A stretch of DNA of 42,573 nt from Acetobacteraceae bacterium (GTDB lineage: Bacteria > Pseudomonadota > Alphaproteobacteria > Acetobacterales > Acetobacteraceae), in NCBI GenBank assembly GCA_003133065.1, contig PKZM01000186.1:10957-53529 (forward strand). Direction: 5' to 3'. The notes beneath the pieces were generated by a model. The model did not search any database. It was given only the letters and a program-made list of their open reading frames with translations, and was not told the DNA's origin. Below, piece by piece: positions 1,182 to 37,231 of this stretch. The stretch's first letter is position 1; each line of letters opens with the position of its first letter. The translations under genes and the position numbers were made by a program.

Positions 1182-4052
1182 TCACGTCAGTTGCCGGCGC
1201 GCCAGATCCGCGAACAATCCGGGCGCATTCGCCAGCTCGGCAAAACCGCCGCTCTGCACAAGCCTGCCGCCATCCAGCACCAGCACCCGGTCCACCCGCG
1301 CAATGGTGGAAAGCCGGTGCGCGATCACCACGCGCGTCAGCCCCAGGCTCGCCACCGCATCGGTCACGATTGCCTGCGTGCGGTTGTCCAGCGCGCTGGT
1401 GGCTTCATCCAGCAGCAAAATCTTCGGCCGCCGCGCCAAGGCCCGCGCGATCATCAGCCGCTGCCGCTGGCCACCGGAGAGCGTATTGCCGCCATCGGTC
1501 AGCATGGTGTGCATGCCCATCGGCATCGCCTTGATATCGGCCTCCAGCCCCGCCATCCGCGCCGCGTGCCAGCCATCCTCCAGCGCGATCGGCCGCCCGC
1601 CGCCGATATTCTCGATCAGGCTGCCCGGCTGCACCCGCCCGTTCTGCAGCACCACCCCGATCTGACGCCGCAGCGCCACCACATCCAGCGTGGCGAGGCT
1701 GCTGCCCTCGAACAGGATCTCCCCTGCCTGCGGTACCTCGAACCCCAGCATCAGCCGCAGGATCGTCGATTTGCCGCACCCTGACGGCCCCACGATCGCC
1801 ACGAACTCGCCCGGCCTGATGCTGAAGGAGAGATCCTGCAGCACCGGCGGCGCCCCTGGCAGATAGCCGAAGGTGATGCCGCTGAACGCGATGGCGCCGG
1901 CCACCACCCCCGGCGGCCGCGCGGGGGCCGCCGTTTCCGGCATCGCCTCTAGCAGCGGCCGTGCCCGCTCATACAGCGGCAGAACGCCCAGCATCTCCCC
2001 GGCCGCCTCCACCATGAACCCCAGCCCGGCCGTCAGTTGCCCAAACGCCGCGCTGAAGGCCACCCACGCCGCCAACCCCAAAACACCGGCACCCGGCGCC
2101 CCCAGCGCCAGCCCCGCCGCCAGCGTGAACAGCAGCGCGGTTCCCGCCGGCAACAGCAGCGCCGGCACGACCGACTGCCATGCCCGCGTTCTCTGAACCG
2201 CGACGAACGCGTCCCGCTGCCCGGCGAACAGCCGCGCCCACAGCGCGAATGCCCGATCCGCGGCACTCGCCGTGCGCAGCTTCGCCAACCCGCCGATGCA
2301 TTGCAGAACGAAGCTCTCCGCCTGCCCGCGGCGGTTCGCCAGAACCCGCTCCCGCCGCAACTGAAGCGCCGCCAGAACCGCCCCCGCGCCCGCCTGCGCC
2401 ACCGCCACGCCAAGCCCGACCATGGCCAGCCGCGCGCTGCACACGAACATCACCGACAGGTTCACCAGCGACATCAGCCCGGCGAACAGCGCTCCCAGCG
2501 TGCTGCCGGTGATCAGCCGGCGCATCTCCTGCACGCCCATCACCCGGTCCGCCAGATCCCCCGCCGCGAAGCCGCGAAAGAACGTGGGGTGCAGCCGCAG
2601 CATCCGGTCGAACAGCGCCGGCTGCGAATTCAAATCCAGCCGCCCTTCCAGTTGCAGCAGGATGATCGCCCGCACGATATTCACCGCCGCCTGGCCGAAC
2701 GCCGCCGCCGCCAGGCCCAGTGCCAGCACCGCGATATCGCCGCCGGCCGAAGCCGGGATCACCGTCTCCACCAGCACGCCCGTCGCCAGCGGCACCCCCA
2801 GGCCCAGTACCGACCCCGCCAGCGAGGCCACCATCAGCCGCATGCCCAATGGGCCGCCGCCCGCAAAGGCAAAACTGGCCAATGCCCATGGTTTCGGCGA
2901 CGCATCGGGAAGGCTGCGATACAGCATCCATGCCGTCGGCGAGAGCGCGCCCGCCATTGCCGCGTCCACCACAGGCGAGGAAGCCGCGGGCGCGGTCCAT
3001 ATCCGCGTGCGCTTGCCGTCCGGCAGCAGGGCCACCGCCGTACCATCGCCCGCCCGCATCCCAATCAGCGGCCCGGTCTTCCACCCCCACCACCCGGTGC
3101 GCAGCAGCACCCGGCGCCCGCGCAGCCCCGCCTCGTCGATCATGGCATCGATGCGCGCCGCTCCAGCCGGCAACTGCAAGGTCGCCTCCGTGACGCCACG
3201 CGGCGACATGCCCAATTCGCCGGCCACCCGCGCGATCACCCGCAAGTCGTCATCATCGATCGCCGCGGCATCGCTCTCGGCGCCCGCTTCCCCCGCCAGG
3301 CGCATCAGCCCGCTGGTCAGCCCGTGCCGCGTCGCCCGGTCGCTGCTGCCCAGTTGCGCCGTCAGTGACGCCATGCGCGCCGCGATCAGCCCTTGGGTGC
3401 GCGACAGAAGCGCCGCGTGCCAGGCGACCAGCGCCGTCTGAAGCCCCGCATCGCCTATCAGCGCCGCGGTGGTGGTCACCACCAGCGTGCTCTCCTCCGC
3501 CGCGCGCAGCGGTGCCGCCGCGGTGCACGGCACCGCCGGCATGCCCGGCTGCACCACCTCACCCGCTGGCGCATGCAGGCTGCCGGATTGCACTTTCACC
3601 CACGCGACCGGCGGACTCTCCGCGGCCAGCGCCTCGCCGGCCTCAAGCTCCATCCGGCCGGTCGCCGCCAGCCGCACCACACCCCAATGCGCCTCCGGAT
3701 CACGGAACAACTCGTCGAATGCCACGATCCAGGTGTCCACCGCTTCCGCGCTGGCCGGCCCCGGCGGCGCCCCTACCGCCTCCGATGCCAGCCCCCCCAC
3801 CGCCAGGATGGACCAGCCGGCCGCCTCGGCTTCGACGCCCAAGCCCAGCAGCGGCATCCCGTTCGTCAGCCGCAGCAGAAAATGCCGCCGCCCCACCGGC
3901 TGCCCATCCTCCCACCGCACCGCAAACAGATCCGCGAACCGCCCGCGAATGCGCCAGATCCCCTCCAGCCGATGCAGCGGCAGCGGCGTATCAGCCGTCA
4001 GCGCCAACACCGCACCCGCGCCGGTGGCCGCAAGCGCGGTAATGACGTTCAT
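1182..4052 (-). CDS. NHLP-type bacteriocin/RiPP export ABC transporter permease/ATPase (no peptidase)
   Basis: 956 aa; C-terminal ABC with GPSGCGKST, TLSGGQRQRLMIARAL, ILLLDEATSALD, VIAHRLSTIARVDRVLVLDGG; long N-terminal domain and TM region; overlaps the stop of the next gene by 4 bp. Confidence 0.85.
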   Translation of the reverse strand: MNVITALAATGAGAVLALTADTPLPLHRLEGIWRIRGRFADLFAVRWEDGQPVGRRHFLLRLTNGMPLLGLGVEAEAAGWSILAVGGLASEAVGAPPGPASAEAVDTWIVAFDELFRDPEAHWGVVRLAATGRMELEAGEALAAESPPVAWVKVQSGSLHAPAGEVVQPGMPAVPCTAAAPLRAAEESTLVVTTTAALIGDAGLQTALVAWHAALLSRTQGLIAARMASLTAQLGSSDRATRHGLTSGLMRLAGEAGAESDAAAIDDDDLRVIARVAGELGMSPRGVTEATLQLPAGAARIDAMIDEAGLRGRRVLLRTGWWGWKTGPLIGMRAGDGTAVALLPDGKRTRIWTAPAASSPVVDAAMAGALSPTAWMLYRSLPDASPKPWALASFAFAGGGPLGMRLMVASLAGSVLGLGVPLATGVLVETVIPASAGGDIAVLALGLAAAAFGQAAVNIVRAIILLQLEGRLDLNSQPALFDRMLRLHPTFFRGFAAGDLADRVMGVQEMRRLITGSTLGALFAGLMSLVNLSVMFVCSARLAMVGLGVAVAQAGAGAVLAALQLRRERVLANRRGQAESFVLQCIGGLAKLRTASAADRAFALWARLFAGQRDAFVAVQRTRAWQSVVPALLLPAGTALLFTLAAGLALGAPGAGVLGLAAWVAFSAAFGQLTAGLGFMVEAAGEMLGVLPLYERARPLLEAMPETAAPARPPGVVAGAIAFSGITFGYLPGAPPVLQDLSFSIRPGEFVAIVGPSGCGKSTILRLMLGFEVPQAGEILFEGSSLATLDVVALRRQIGVVLQNGRVQPGSLIENIGGGRPIALEDGWHAARMAGLEADIKAMPMGMHTMLTDGGNTLSGGQRQRLMIARALARRPKILLLDEATSALDNRTQAIVTDAVASLGLTRVVIAHRLSTIARVDRVLVLDGGRLVQSGGFAELANAPGLFADLARRQLT

Positions 4053-6313
4053 GCCGCCGCCGCCATGCCGAACAGCCCAGCATACAGCCCCTGTTCGTCC
4101 ATCAGCCGCGCATGCGTGCCGCGTTCCACCACCGCCCCGCGCTGCATCACCACGATCTCGTCTGCATCCCGCACCGTGGAGAGCCGGTGCGCGATGATCA
4201 GCCCGGTGCAGCCGCGCCTGCGAATGCTCTCGTCGATCCGCTGCTCCAGCAGCGGATCCAGCGCCGCCGTCGCCTCATCCAGCACCAGCACGGAAGGGTT
4301 GCCCACGAGCGCCCGCGCAATTTCCAGCCGCTGCCGCTGGCCGCCGGAAAAATTCGTCCCGCCCTCCGCCACCACGCTATCCAGCGCGCCCGGCCGCACC
4401 GCGACATCGGCGTAGATTTCGGCATCCTTCAGCGCGTCCACCAGCGTGGTTTCCGGCGGCGTCGGGTCCCACAGCGTCAGGTTGTCGCGCACCGTGCCGG
4501 CGAACAAAAAGATATCCTGATCCACATAGGCCAGCGAGGCCGCCCGCAGCGCGGGTGGCAGCGCCTGGATCGGCTGCCCATCCAGCAGGATCTCGCCCGA
4601 CCACGGCTCCAGCAGCCCGCACAGCAGCCGCCCGATGGTGGATTTGCCGCTGCCCGATCCGCCCACCAGCGCCACCCGCGTGCCGGGCTCCAGCACCAGG
4701 GTGAAATCGCTGATCAGCGGCGGCTCCGCCGGGCTGTAGCCGAAGGTGATGTTGCGGAACTCCACCCGCCCCGCCAGCCGCGCCGCCCCGGGCGGCAGCG
4801 GCGCCGCGGGCGCCGGCCTGCCACGCAGCAGATCGTTGATCCGGTTCAGATCGCCCTGCGCCTGCTGCGCCCGCGCGGCCAGCGCCGCCAACTGATTGAA
4901 CGGCCCCACGAAGCTGCTCATCAGCAATTGCAGCGCCAGCAGCGATCCGATGCTCAACTCCCCCTGGATCACCCGTATCCCACCCACGATCACCACCGCC
5001 CCTGCGCCGATCGAGCCCAGCAGGGCCGGCGCCACCCCCGCGATCCCGTTCATCAGGCCCAGGGCCTGCTGGCCGGACAGCGCGCGGGCGTGATATCCCG
5101 CCCAGCGCGCGAAGGCTTCACCCTCCCCGCCCGACACCTTGATCGTTTCTATCCCGACGATCGCGCCGACCGCTGCCCCCTCCATGCGGCCTTCCACCAG
5201 GTTGATCGCGCGGTTCAGTTCCGCCGCGCGGTGACGCAGCGCGCGCAGCAGCGCCACGTTCGCCACCGGCACCAGCAGTGCCACCGCCGCAACCAGCGGA
5301 TCGAACACCGCCATGGCCGCGCCGTACAAGACCACGGCCACCACGTTGAACGCGCTGGTCGCCAGCTCGCCGCTGAGCAGCCCCGCCACGCGCGCCGCGC
5401 AGGCCACCCGCATGGCCATTTCGCCGGCGGTGCGCTGGGCCACGAACGCCATCGGCAGCGCCAGCATCGATGCCATCACGCGGCCCGCCAGCACGGCCGC
5501 CAGCTTCGCTTCCAGCCGGATCAGGTAATGTTGCTGGAACCGGATGATGATCGCCTGCAAGGCGCCAGCGCCCACCAGCACCGCACAGAGCGGCAGCAAC
5601 CAGCCGTGCAGGCGTTGCAGCAGCACCTTTTCCACGAATAGTTTCGCAATCCCGGGGATCAGCAGCCCCGGCACCACCAGCATCAGGCTGAAGGCGAACA
5701 CCAGCGCCACCGCCGCTTTCGACCGCGCGAGCAGGTGCACGATCTCCCGCAGCGGCTGCGGCGGATTGCCCCCTTTGGTGAAGGAAGCCGTGCGTGTGAA
5801 CGCCAGCACCACGCCGGTAAAGCTCTGGTCGAATTCCGCGCGCGCCACCCGCACGCGCCCCCGCGCCGGATCGTTGATGAAGGCAAACGCGCCGTGAAAC
5901 CCCTCGAACACGACGTAATGATTGAAATTCCAGTGGATGATGCTCGGCACCGGCAGGTCCGCCAGCCCCGCCGGTTCCTTGCGGTAGCCTTTCGCCTCCA
6001 GCCCGAAGCTGCGCGCCGCTTTGAGGATATTGGAGGCTTTGCTCCCATCCCGGCTGACCCCGCAGGCGATTCGCAGCGCCTCCAGCGGCACCCAGCGCCC
6101 ATAGAACCCCAGCACCATCCCCAGCGACGCTGCCCCACATTCCAACGCCGACAACTGCAAGATCGTCGGCGTGTGTCGAGCCCCAACAGGCAAAAGTTTT
6201 TTGCTTCTTTTTTTCAAAAAAGAAGAATCTTTCTCTTTTGCCGCTCCGCGGGGGGCTTCTTTCTTGAAAGAAAGCAGCAAAGACCTTTTGCCTGTTGGCG
6301 CATCGCTCACCAT
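4049..6313 (-). CDS. NHLP-type export ABC transporter with N-terminal C39 peptidase (peptidase/permease/ATPase)
   Basis: 754 aa; C39 motifs TPTILQLSALECGAASLGMVLGFYGRWV, NHYVVFEG, FINDPARG (Cys/His/Asp present); ABC GGSGSGKST, FSGGQRQRLEIARAL, VLVLDEATAALD. ATG at 6313 follows the hlyD TAG directly. The true start is uncertain because an AT-rich palindromic element lies at the 5' end. Confidence 0.88.
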   Translation of the reverse strand: MVSDAPTGKRSLLLSFKKEAPRGAAKEKDSSFLKKRSKKLLPVGARHTPTILQLSALECGAASLGMVLGFYGRWVPLEALRIACGVSRDGSKASNILKAARSFGLEAKGYRKEPAGLADLPVPSIIHWNFNHYVVFEGFHGAFAFINDPARGRVRVARAEFDQSFTGVVLAFTRTASFTKGGNPPQPLREIVHLLARSKAAVALVFAFSLMLVVPGLLIPGIAKLFVEKVLLQRLHGWLLPLCAVLVGAGALQAIIIRFQQHYLIRLEAKLAAVLAGRVMASMLALPMAFVAQRTAGEMAMRVACAARVAGLLSGELATSAFNVVAVVLYGAAMAVFDPLVAAVALLVPVANVALLRALRHRAAELNRAINLVEGRMEGAAVGAIVGIETIKVSGGEGEAFARWAGYHARALSGQQALGLMNGIAGVAPALLGSIGAGAVVIVGGIRVIQGELSIGSLLALQLLMSSFVGPFNQLAALAARAQQAQGDLNRINDLLRGRPAPAAPLPPGAARLAGRVEFRNITFGYSPAEPPLISDFTLVLEPGTRVALVGGSGSGKSTIGRLLCGLLEPWSGEILLDGQPIQALPPALRAASLAYVDQDIFLFAGTVRDNLTLWDPTPPETTLVDALKDAEIYADVAVRPGALDSVVAEGGTNFSGGQRQRLEIARALVGNPSVLVLDEATAALDPLLEQRIDESIRRRGCTGLIIAHRLSTVRDADEIVVMQRGAVVERGTHARLMDEQGLYAGLFGMAAAA
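6183..6298. repeat. Palindromic element, converging form with terminal inverted repeat CCAACAGGCAAAAG/CTTTTGCCTGTTGG, inside the 5' end of the C39-ABC ORF
   Basis: Exact 14-bp terminal inverted repeats at 6183-6196 and 6285-6298, with internal hairpins GCTTCTTTTTTTCAAAAAAGAAG and CTTCTTTCTTGAAAGAAAGCAG. Confidence 0.9.
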
Positions 6314-7564
6314 CTAGCGCCCGTGGTGAAACGGCAAAATTAAGTTAATCGGTGCCTGCACGCGCACGGTGATCCACACCTGCACCGTGGTGCCGCTGGT
6401 CAGGTCCAGCGCCGGCCCTGCGCCGGAGCTCCACGCGTAGCCCGTTGGCGTATCGGCCGCCAGCAGATCGATCCGTGTCTCATACGGTGTTCCCGCGGCG
6501 GCGAATTCCGTAACCAGGCTCTGGTTCTGCAGTTCGGAGAGCATGCCCTGCGGCGTGGAGGGAAAGGCGGAGACGGCCTGTACCACGCCGCGCATCGTGC
6601 CGTATTCCTCCCGCCGCACCGTCGAGGGCGCCACCCGCACCACCATGCCCGGCAGCACGCTCTTGCCCTGGCCGGTCGGCACATACACCACCGCTTGCAG
6701 CCGGTGCCCAGCCGTTTCCAGATTCATGACCAGCGCGTTGGCGGCCAGGCGCTGGCCCTCCGTTACCGCCAGTTCCGTGATCCGCCCGCTGGCCGGCGCC
6801 AGCACCGCGCCGCTGATCCGCAACTGCAATTTCAGCTCCGCCACCTGCCGTTCCGCGTCCGCCACGGCCCGCCGCGCGGTTGCCACATCCCGATCCGCCT
6901 GTGCCTGCCCGTGCAGCGCCTCGGAATCGAGCTCGGCCAGCTTGGCCCGCGTGGCATCGATATCCTCCTCGCCCTGTTCGATGGTCACCCGCATTTGCTC
7001 CACCGTCTCGTCCGAAACGAGGCCGTTACGGCGCAGCCCTTCACGCAGAGCCAACTGCCCCTGCAAGCGCGCCAGCCTTTCCGTGGTCAACCGGATCACT
7101 TCGGTATAGGTGGTGCGCCGCTCGGCGCTGTTGCGCGCGATTGCCGCTGCTTCGCGTGCGATCGCCGCCTGCAACTGCGTCAACTGCGTGCGTTGCTCTG
7201 CGGCGGCGGCTTCGGCGTTGGCCAGGCGCAGCTGCGTCTCATCCTGACTCAGCACCGCCAGCGTCTGCCCCTTCACCACGCTGTCGCCCGCGTGCACCAG
7301 CACGCGTTCCACCAGGCCCGACGCCGGCGCCACGGCGCTGACCACCTGGCCGCTCTCCCGCACCAGGATCCCCGGCGCTTCCACCTCTGTGCGGATTGTT
7401 CCAAAGACGCTCCACGCGAGCAGTGCGACCACCACCACCCCCAGGCCGAGTGCCGCGATCCAGCCGCGCGTGTCCGCCACCGTGACGAGTTCATCCAGTT
7501 GCTCGGGCGAGGCCAATTTCTCCAGGGCAGCCTGCCTGAAGATCCGTGTCGCAGCGTCGGTCAT
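6314..7564 (-). CDS. HlyD/membrane-fusion adaptor of the NHLP export system
   Basis: 416 aa; single N-terminal TM (ALGLGVVVVALLAWSVFGTI), lipoyl-type GILVRESGQVVSAVAPASGLVERVLVHAGDSVVKGQTLAVL, coiled coil; operonic with both ABC genes. Confidence 0.85.
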   Translation of the reverse strand: MTDAATRIFRQAALEKLASPEQLDELVTVADTRGWIAALGLGVVVVALLAWSVFGTIRTEVEAPGILVRESGQVVSAVAPASGLVERVLVHAGDSVVKGQTLAVLSQDETQLRLANAEAAAAEQRTQLTQLQAAIAREAAAIARNSAERRTTYTEVIRLTTERLARLQGQLALREGLRRNGLVSDETVEQMRVTIEQGEEDIDATRAKLAELDSEALHGQAQADRDVATARRAVADAERQVAELKLQLRISGAVLAPASGRITELAVTEGQRLAANALVMNLETAGHRLQAVVYVPTGQGKSVLPGMVVRVAPSTVRREEYGTMRGVVQAVSAFPSTPQGMLSELQNQSLVTEFAAAGTPYETRIDLLAADTPTGYAWSSGAGPALDLTSGTTVQVWITVRVQAPINLILPFHHGR

Positions 7565-7691: not shown

Positions 7692-7784
7692 ACAATAGTT
7701 GTTCCGCGCGCGGCTTTACCCAATTGACCCCAACGGCACTTGATGTAAGTTACACTCGTTACTTTTAATGGAAAGGGTTTTACG

Positions 7785-7940
7785 ATGCCAATCCAAGATG
7801 ACGGGAAGATCGAAGATAAGGCCGAAATTCTGTCGGAAGACGAACTGGATGACGTGTCCGGCGGTGTTCACGCCGACAAAGTCAAAGAGGGCCCAGATCG
7901 GGTCAAAGCCGCCGTCAAGGAAAACTTCTTCAAGGCCTGA
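7785..7940 (+). CDS. Short double-glycine leader peptide; candidate substrate of the adjacent C39/NHLP exporter
   Basis: 51 aa: MPIQDDGKIEDKAEILSEDELDDVSGGVHADKVKEGPDRVKAAVKENFFKA*; acidic leader with ELDDVSGG; GGAAAGGG RBS about 8 nt upstream; not in the ORF track because of its length. Confidence 0.75.
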   Translation: MPIQDDGKIEDKAEILSEDELDDVSGGVHADKVKEGPDRVKAAVKENFFKA

Positions 7941-7989
7941 AGCAGGGCTGCGGCCCCCGGGCGCAGCTTTCGCCATGCTTGCCCGCGGT

Positions 7990-8060
7990 TAAAGTTTTTT
8001 GCTTCTTTTTTCAAAAAAGTAAGGTCTTCTTTTTTGAAAAAAAGAAGCAAAAAACTTTTA
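7990..8060. repeat. Palindromic element, converging form
   Basis: AAAGTTTTTTGCTTCTTTTTTCAAAAAAGTAAGGTCTTCTTTTTTGAAAAAAAGAAGCAAAAAACTTTT; imperfect inverted repeat. Confidence 0.85.
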
Positions 8061-9237: not shown

Positions 9238-9954
9238 ATGGACCTCAAGGAAGAAGCCATTCTTGGCGACTCCGCCGCCTCCCACTGGTATTACCGTGCC
9301 AAATCCGCCGCCATGCTGCGCATGCTCGGGTCCGCGCCCATCGGCGACATCCTCGATGTCGGCGCCGGCTCAGGGTTTTTCTCCCGCGTGCTGCTTGATC
9401 GCACATCTGCCACAGGCGCCACCTGCGTGGATCCCAATTACGCTCGCGAACACGCGGAAATTCACAACACCAAGCCGATCCGCTTCGCCTTTCGCGTGAA
9501 CCGCTTCCCCGGCGATCTGGTTCTGATGATGGACGTGCTGGAACACGTGCCGGACGATACCGCCCTGCTCGCGGAATATGCCGCCTGCGTTTCCCCTCGC
9601 ACGCGCTTTCTCATCACCGTACCGGCCCTGCAATGGATGTGGAGCGGCCACGACGTGTTCCTGGAACATTACCGCCGCTATACGCTGCGCCAAGTGGATC
9701 GCCTGATCGCCCGCGTGGGCCTGAAACCCTTGGCCAGCAGCTACTATTACGGCTTTACTTTACCCATCGCCGCGGCGGCGCGCATCCCCGGCCGCATCGC
9801 CTCGGGCGGCCGAGTTGTTGCTGCATCCGGCATGAAACGTCATTCACCGCTGGTGAACGGCGCGCTCGCCGCCCTGTGCGCGGCCGAACTGCCGTTGCTG
9901 GGGCATAATAAGCTTGCTGGTCTTTCGGTCTTCGCCCTTGCGGAGAAGCCGTAG
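9238..9954 (+). CDS. Class I SAM-dependent methyltransferase
   Basis: 238 aa; IGDILDVGAGSGFFSRVLLD motif I and DLVLMMDVLEHVPDDTALLAEYA. Confidence 0.85.
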   Translation: MDLKEEAILGDSAASHWYYRAKSAAMLRMLGSAPIGDILDVGAGSGFFSRVLLDRTSATGATCVDPNYAREHAEIHNTKPIRFAFRVNRFPGDLVLMMDVLEHVPDDTALLAEYAACVSPRTRFLITVPALQWMWSGHDVFLEHYRRYTLRQVDRLIARVGLKPLASSYYYGFTLPIAAAARIPGRIASGGRVVAASGMKRHSPLVNGALAALCAAELPLLGHNKLAGLSVFALAEKP

Positions 9955-13578: not shown

Positions 13579-13625
13579 GGCCTTCTTTTTTGAAAAAAAG
13601 AAGCAAAAAACTTTTGTCTGTTGGC
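13579..13625. repeat. Palindromic element, single half copy
   Basis: GGCCTTCTTTTTTGAAAAAAAGAAGCAAAAAACTTTTGTCTG between convergent genes. Confidence 0.8.
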
Positions 13626-19553: not shown

Positions 19554-19690
19554 CGTAGGAAGAAAGATGTTCTTTTTTGAAAAAAAGAACCAAAAAACTT
19601 TTGTTCCTTTACGTGCGCTGCCGGCAAGGCGCGCGCCAACAGGCAAAAGTTTTTTGCTTCTTTTTTTCAAAAAAGAAGACCTTCTCTCTC
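19554..19690. repeat. Composite palindromic element, diverging form with GC-rich core
   Basis: CGTAGGAAGAAAGATGTTCTTTTTTGAAAAAAAGAACCAAAAAACTTTTG...GCGCTGCCGGCAAGGCGCGCGCC...CAAAAGTTTTTTGCTTCTTTTTTTCAAAAAAGAAGACCTTCT. Confidence 0.9.
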
Positions 19691-19902: not shown

Positions 19903-20038
19903 CGTAGGAAGAAAGATGTTCTTTTTTGAAAAAAAGAACCAAAAAACTTTTATCCCTTTGCGCACGCTGCCGGCGAGTCGCGCGCCAACAGTCAAAAGTT
20001 TTTTGCTTCTTTTTCTCAAAAAAGAAGATCTTCCTTTA
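19903..20038. repeat. Composite palindromic element, diverging form with GC-rich core; overlaps the lexA stop
   Basis: The first 49 nt are identical to 19554..19602; right arm CAAAAGTTTTTTGCTTCTTTTTCTCAAAAAAGAAGATCTTCC. Confidence 0.9.
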
Positions 20039-28473: not shown

Positions 28474-28618
28474 GAAGAAAGAGTGTTCTTTTTTGAAAAA
28501 AAAGAACCAGATAACTTTTGCCTGTTCGCTCTCACCGGCTATCCGACACGCCAGCACCATGCGCACCTGAACGAATAAAAGTTTTTTGGTTCTTTTTTTC
28601 AAAAAAGAACACTCTTTA
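28474..28618. repeat. Composite palindromic element, diverging form (both arms GGTTC subtype), in the rph/hrcA divergent region
   Basis: Left GAAAGAGTGTTCTTTTTTGAAAAAAAAGAACC; right AAAAGTTTTTTGGTTCTTTTTTTCAAAAAAGAACACTCTTT is its near-exact reverse complement. Confidence 0.9.
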
Positions 28619-33265: not shown

Positions 33266-33396
33266 AGAGGAAGAATGTTCTTTTTTGAAAAAAAGAACCA
33301 AAAAACTTTATCCCTTTGCGCGCGCTGCCGGCACGGCGCGCGCCAATAGACAAAAGTATTTTGCTTCTTTTTTTCAAAAAAGAAGGCCTTCCTTAC
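33266..33396. repeat. Composite palindromic element, diverging form with GC-rich core; overlaps the stop of the phytochrome kinase
   Basis: GAGGAAGAATGTTCTTTTTTGAAAAAAAGAACCAAAAAACTTT...GCGCGCGCTGCCGGCACGGCGCGCGC...CAAAAGTATTTTGCTTCTTTTTTTCAAAAAAGAAGGCCTTCC. Confidence 0.9.
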
Positions 33397-37155: not shown

Positions 37156-37231
37156 GTAAAAGTTTTTTGCTTCTTTTTTTCAAAAAAGAAGGCCTTCTTT
37201 CTTGAAAGAAAGAAGCAAAGAACTTTTGTCC
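37156..37231. repeat. Palindromic element, converging form
   Basis: GTAAAAGTTTTTTGCTTCTTTTTTTCAAAAAAGAAGGCCTTCTTTCTTGAAAGAAAGAAGCAAAGAACTTTTG. Confidence 0.88.

Follow-up and report, generated by a model that had tools for sequence, protein, structure and literature searches.

Does a short open reading frame (ORF) lying divergent from an NHLP-type exporter in an uncultured Acetobacteraceae bacterium encode the cargo of this exporter, and if so, what kind of peptide is secreted? The window, i.e., the whole stretch of 42,573 nucleotides analysed here, belongs to a MAG of 4.19 Mb that is about 90% complete. The ORF at 7785-7940 (+ strand) very probably encodes a short class-II-type double-glycine (GG) precursor, which serves as cargo of the adjoining exporter. 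It represents a short, synthesizable secreted-peptide candidate with a predicted cleavage site from an uncultured bacterium.

The exporter cassette and the peptide gene

The minus strand of the window encodes a HlyD-type membrane fusion protein of the NHLP system (6314-7564; TIGR03794, 280.5 bits, cut-off 156.2), a C39 peptidase/permease/ATPase (4049-6313; TIGR03796, 912.5 bits, cut-off 853.3; Pfam Peptidase_C39, 1.5e-32) and a second ABC permease/ATPase without a peptidase (1182-4052; TIGR03797, 746.4 bits, cut-off 709.4). All three export proteins exceed the curated cut-offs, in agreement with the NHLP-type exporter named beside the peptide in the initial annotation, and by these models the exporter belongs fully to the NHLP-type system. 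Furthermore, a cyclic-nucleotide-binding-domain protein (656-1171, - strand; PF00027, 2.8e-16) resembles the bacteriocin-type transport-associated family TIGR03896 at a score below the cut-off (112.8 versus 161 bits), and its gene has an equivalent place in related cassettes.

The peptide gene, which had previously not been listed, encodes a product of 51 aa, MPIQDDGKIEDKAEILSEDELDDVSGG|VHADKVKEGPDRVKAAVKENFFKA, consisting of a 27-aa leader and a 24-aa core. It is recognizable by its ORF, ribosome-binding site (RBS), codon bias and a leader end of the form LSxxELxxVxGG. The RBS (GGAAAGG, 7770-7776, + strand) is located 8 nt ahead of the ATG, and the gene is divergent from hlyD, which starts at 7564 at a separation of 220 bp; coordinates, RBS and divergence all correspond to those initially described. 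The codon log-likelihood of the ORF in frame is +21.2 bits, compared to a mean of -34 for base-shuffled sequences (0 of 5000 shuffles reached +21.2), and its GC content of 0.69/0.28/0.65 at codon positions 1/2/3 is a coding pattern. Mirror frames commonly score positive because codons are mirrored, and the mirror frame of the peptide ORF (an 86-aa ORF at 7716-7976, - strand) reaches +15.6 bits, so the strand is not settled by codon bias alone. A search for a sigma-70 consensus promoter of the peptide gene gave no result. The missing promoter consensus, together with the missing homologue of the peptide, was counted against its assignment as cargo, as was the divergent position, from which co-regulation does not necessarily follow.

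The region directly 3' of the peptide gene contains an A/T-rich inverted repeat with 33-nt arms (7991-8058). This repeat is one of a dispersed set in the window, in which TTTTTTGCTTCTTTTTTCAAAAAAG and its reverse complement often form inverted pairs (further sites at 6203-6220, 13585-13604, 16209, 19572-19675, 19921-20024, 28488-28606, 33280-33381 and 37169-37188).

The 51-aa peptide contains a textbook leader end, LSEDELDDVSGG. A strict GG scanner (motif [LIM][DESNTGA]x[VIAT][SANT]GG, ORFs no longer than 140 aa, a start preceded by an RBS, and a composition filter) identified ORF 7785-7940 as the sole match in the window. It yielded no matches in 2.55 Mb of shuffled sequence (60 first-order Markov shuffles of the window) or in unrelated DNA of the family (87.9 kb), which served as control. 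That the region is non-coding, a divergent intergenic stretch in which the frame is open by chance, is highly improbable. The positive score of the mirror frame, the lack of any homologue of the peptide and the GC content around the ORF (0.49-0.53 versus 0.66 for the window) would be compatible with such a frame, but motif, RBS, codon signal and position are jointly far beyond shuffled controls. A degenerate search for E/D-L-D-x-[IVM]-x-G-G across the 4.19 Mb of the genome gave three sites including the peptide ORF; the two others (C36 and C113) are located within longer ORFs and were rejected as precursors. A looser LSxxELxx pattern gave three further matches in the genome.

Leader recognition and cargo assignment

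Among solved structures, LahT150 (6mpz; E 7.5e-53) is the best match to the C39 domain, with 62% identity over 127 aligned columns. Cys59 (6137-6139), His132 (5918-5920) and Asp148 (5870-5872; all - strand) align with Cys27, His101 and Asp117 of LahT, which constitute the catalytic triad named in PMC6363468. The Cys, His and Asp residues of an active C39 peptidase, which had been noted in the neighbouring ABC protein, are thus intact by alignment to 6mpz. In LahT150, the last 13 leader residues are enough for cleavage and varied cores are tolerated; V-4, L-7 and L-12 of the leader occupy a hydrophobic groove, and cleavage is stopped by charged residues at -4 or -7 and by most changes at -12 (PMC6363468). 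Like PCAT leaders, the window leader (7785-7865, + strand) has hydrophobic residues at -4, -7 and -12 ahead of a terminal GG, and its V-4, L-7 and L-12 are found at the LahT150-contacting positions. Its motif is the one described for NHLP, N11P and class II leaders, and agrees with the logo published by Haft et al. (PMC2887384) at Leu2, Ser3, the acidic positions 4 and 6, Leu7, Val10 and GG, departing from it at position 1, which is Ile and not acidic. With 27 aa, the leader is close to the mean length of class II leaders (TIGR01847, 24 aa) and far from those of NHLP (83 aa) and N11P leaders (70 aa; PMC2887384). Leader end, ORF and exporter fit support the earlier designation of the peptide as a double-glycine leader precursor.

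Neither the NHLP precursor model (TIGR03793) nor the Nif11 precursor model (TIGR03798) matched the peptide, which bears out its proposed position outside the classical NHLP and Nif11 families, and no precursor of either type was detected in the genome. As the genome contains no detectable NHLP or Nif11 leader, ORF 7785-7940 is the sole cargo candidate found; however, in an assembly of about 90% completeness, a missing NHLP or Nif11 precursor is no proof of absence.

In the proposed mechanism, the last 12 residues of the leader would form a short helix, with V-4, L-7 and L-12 docking in the C39 groove. Cys59/His132/Asp148 would cut after GG (residue 27) and free the 24-aa peptide VHADKVKEGPDRVKAAVKENFFKA, which would then leave by way of the ABC core, HlyD and an outer-membrane channel whose gene lies elsewhere. 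Judged from family membership, such cleavage and export of the 51-mer are to be expected with high probability. We infer that the gene is expressed and that its product is cleaved and exported as a linear, unmodified peptide.

It is very unlikely that the ORF is translated while the exporter in truth serves the product of a different gene, possibly one in the part of the genome that the assembly lacks. The incompleteness of the genome would allow for this, and in G161, one of the genomes compared, the ATP-grasp gene and the conserved GG precursor lie apart from the intact cassettes, so remote cargo is possible. A point against the cargo assignment of the 51-mer is that at 26 of 36 related loci the strict scanner gave no GG ORF within 2 kb, so the cargo of these exporters is often encoded elsewhere or is of another form. 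However, apart from the 51-mer, the window genome gave no short GG ORF in a motif search and no detectable leader of the NHLP or Nif11 type, and the leader of the 51-mer matches the C39 domain residue by residue.

The core peptide and its putative role

The core VHADKVKEGPDRVKAAVKENFFKA (7866-7937, + strand) has a net charge of +2 and lacks not only Cys, as stated in the initial annotation, but also Ser and Thr. This excludes lanthionine and azole chemistry and places the product outside the lanthipeptides and azole-modified RiPPs. No YcaO, lanthionine or radical-SAM enzyme was identified among the window proteins scanned, which comprise glycosyltransferase, methyltransferase, TonB receptor plug, LysR, LexA, TrpC/TrpD-like, RNase PH, HrcA, phytochrome kinase, integrase and shikimate kinase/DHQ synthase proteins, in line with the earlier remark that no RiPP maturase is encoded nearby. 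The core peptide is likely unmodified; this falls short of proof because the assembly lacks roughly 10% of the genome and because an ATP-grasp-like protein accompanies the nearest relatives of the exporter. It is quite unlikely that the product is a modified RiPP whose core is altered before export by an enzyme encoded elsewhere (e.g., a YcaO, an ATP-grasp or a radical-SAM epimerase). Modified peptides are the usual cargo of NHLP exporters (PMC2887384), the closest exporter relatives pair a GG precursor with the ATP-grasp-like protein directly before hlyD, and the window contains a methyltransferase gene at 9238-9954. However, the absence of Cys, Ser and Thr from the core, of a maturase among the scanned window proteins and of a homologue of this ATP-grasp-like protein in the window genome argues against modification.

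The product had been described as mildly cationic and amphipathic. The former holds true, whereas the latter is not supported, as the helical moment of the core is equalled or exceeded by 19% of its shuffles. With a mean Eisenberg hydropathy of -0.2 the core is hydrophilic, and a Gly-Pro within it breaks up any long helix. Based on this short, soluble and charged core and on the lack of an evident immunity-like gene beside the ORF, we tentatively favour a peptide that acts as a cell-to-cell signal or on surfaces; a pore-forming bacteriocin fits slightly less well. A role in killing related bacteria as a bacteriocin (class II microcin), which would be compatible with the proposed export mechanism, is possible but doubtful. 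A GG leader combined with a C39 exporter is the arrangement of class II microcins and bacteriocins, the net charge of +2 would fit, and the leader, though not the core, shows weak likeness to the Bacteriocin_IIc and CTB bacteriocin models. These similarities remain below cut-off (PF10439, 14.1 versus 27.1; NF038167, 14.8 versus 32), and no match to TIGR01847 was reported. In addition to the absent immunity gene, the hydrophilic core is no more amphipathic than its shuffles, and it lacks the Gly/Ala-rich hydrophobic stretch of the GG peptides at three related loci (L077, L083 and L116).

Among the closest known systems, compared by description, is EbfG1-4/PteB of Synechococcus elongatus: EbfG proteins are small GG proteins that lack homologues and are secreted by a C39 transporter, and they show that such proteins can serve biofilm formation, a role other than that of a bacteriocin (PMC4997328). 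Their mature parts of 6-7 kDa differ from the 24-residue core of the window peptide.

Relatives of the peptide and comparable systems

No homologues of the 51-mer were detected by pattern seeds in GTDB genome contigs, in 398 family genomes (only noise, E 0.1-1), in 397 order genomes or in plasmids. GG-peptide cores are hypervariable, so the lack of homologues is expected for such a gene and no sign of an artefact. Of the refuting observations named in the initial annotation, a lack of conserved homologues applies to the peptide sequence itself, but not to the arrangement, as GG peptides recur beside related exporters.

The TIGR03794 HlyD protein is encoded in 33 of the 398 family genomes, including the window genome, and no exporter was found in two genomes of the same genus. 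The nearest cassettes, identified in another genus (g16), share the gene order and 63-65% (HlyD) and 74-75% (ABC1) identity. At the 36 related loci, 14 strict GG ORFs were identified in the 123 kb within 2 kb of the cassettes (10 of 36 loci) versus 2 in 246 kb farther away. Short GG peptides that are neither NHLP nor Nif11 precursors were also found near NHLP-type exporters in Bradyrhizobium acaciae, Bradyrhizobium sp. CB82 and Methylobacterium radiotolerans, and the sole invariant positions in an alignment of 18 short GG peptides from such neighbourhoods are L21 (-7) and both glycines. No GG peptide was found at the best plasmid match, a cassette of Azospirillum oryzae. Alphaproteobacterial NHLP exporters often adjoin short GG peptides outside the NHLP and Nif11 models, and since these models do not describe them, model-based precursor searches miss such peptides. 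In cyanobacteria, Wang et al. assigned 150 of 290 precursors to no named family (PMC3140520). Among the papers searched, none dealt with ATP-grasp/GG pairs or with GG peptides from Acetobacteraceae. It seems rather unlikely that Alphaproteobacteria use the NHLP-type two-ABC exporter not for RiPPs but as a general device for secreting short GG peptides which are unmodified, private and fast-changing (in the window, a 24-residue cell-to-cell signal without relatives).

Further GG peptides were observed at related loci. At L077:97-757 and L083:10146-10827, NHLP-type exporters adjoin GG peptides rich in Gly and Ala (ALSDAQLDDVAGG...), which are encoded as tandem pairs and resemble hydrophobic class II bacteriocins or microcins. 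Plasmid pCB82_1 of Bradyrhizobium sp. CB82 (L125:16890-19234) encodes at least three short GG peptides (MIRELIDTELEVVAGG...) that are related or nearly identical and are annotated only as hypothetical proteins, with an NHLP exporter nearby.

The window system is an orphan, lineage-specific new example of the known combination of a GG-leader peptide and a PCAT exporter. The system shares with the unmodified class II GG peptides of Gram-negative bacteria, surveyed in Dirix 2004 (as cited in PMC3140520), a short leader of the form LSxxELxxVxGG, an adjacent C39 exporter with HlyD and a variable core, but differs in its two-ABC NHLP-type exporter and in a core that resembles no known peptide. In common with NHLP/Nif11 RiPP systems (PMC2887384), the exporter cassette matches all three models and the GG motif is the same; contrastingly, the leader comprises 27 instead of 70-83 aa, TIGR03793 and TIGR03798 are not matched, no maturase was found and the core lacks Cys, Ser and Thr. 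The PCAT LahT of Lachnospiraceae (6mpz, PMC6363468) is similar in its C39 domain, with the same triad and leader contact residues, but serves Nif11-type lanthipeptide precursors in a Gram-positive host.

The g16 loci (L066-L069), which hold the closest exporter relatives, share with the window the four-gene cassette and have a comparable leader, which ends in LDQVSGG. They differ in an acidic core, in the orientation of the precursor gene, which is that of hlyD, and in an enzyme gene without counterpart in the window genome. The conserved g16 precursor of 63-82 aa is encoded ahead of the exporter (e.g., KKSNSEDETNEVEDLEVIPIFDPTSIIE in L066), and its core ends in a conserved FDPTS/T. It is followed by an ATP-grasp-like gene (~360 aa, sub-threshold PF14397 match) directly before hlyD (L066:7124-8522, L067:7550-10240, L068:6969-8536 and L069:7243-8650). 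Among the 398 family genomes, this ATP-grasp-like protein occurs only in five genomes of g16. In G161 (L118:4860-7500 and L130; G161:C462), precursor and ATP-grasp gene are kept while the ABC genes are missing, and hlyD appears truncated or decayed and joined to the cyclic-nucleotide-protein region; the intact cassettes of this genome are on other contigs. The g16 precursor/ATP-grasp pair possibly constitutes an uncharacterized modified-peptide system, and may merit more attention than the window peptide.
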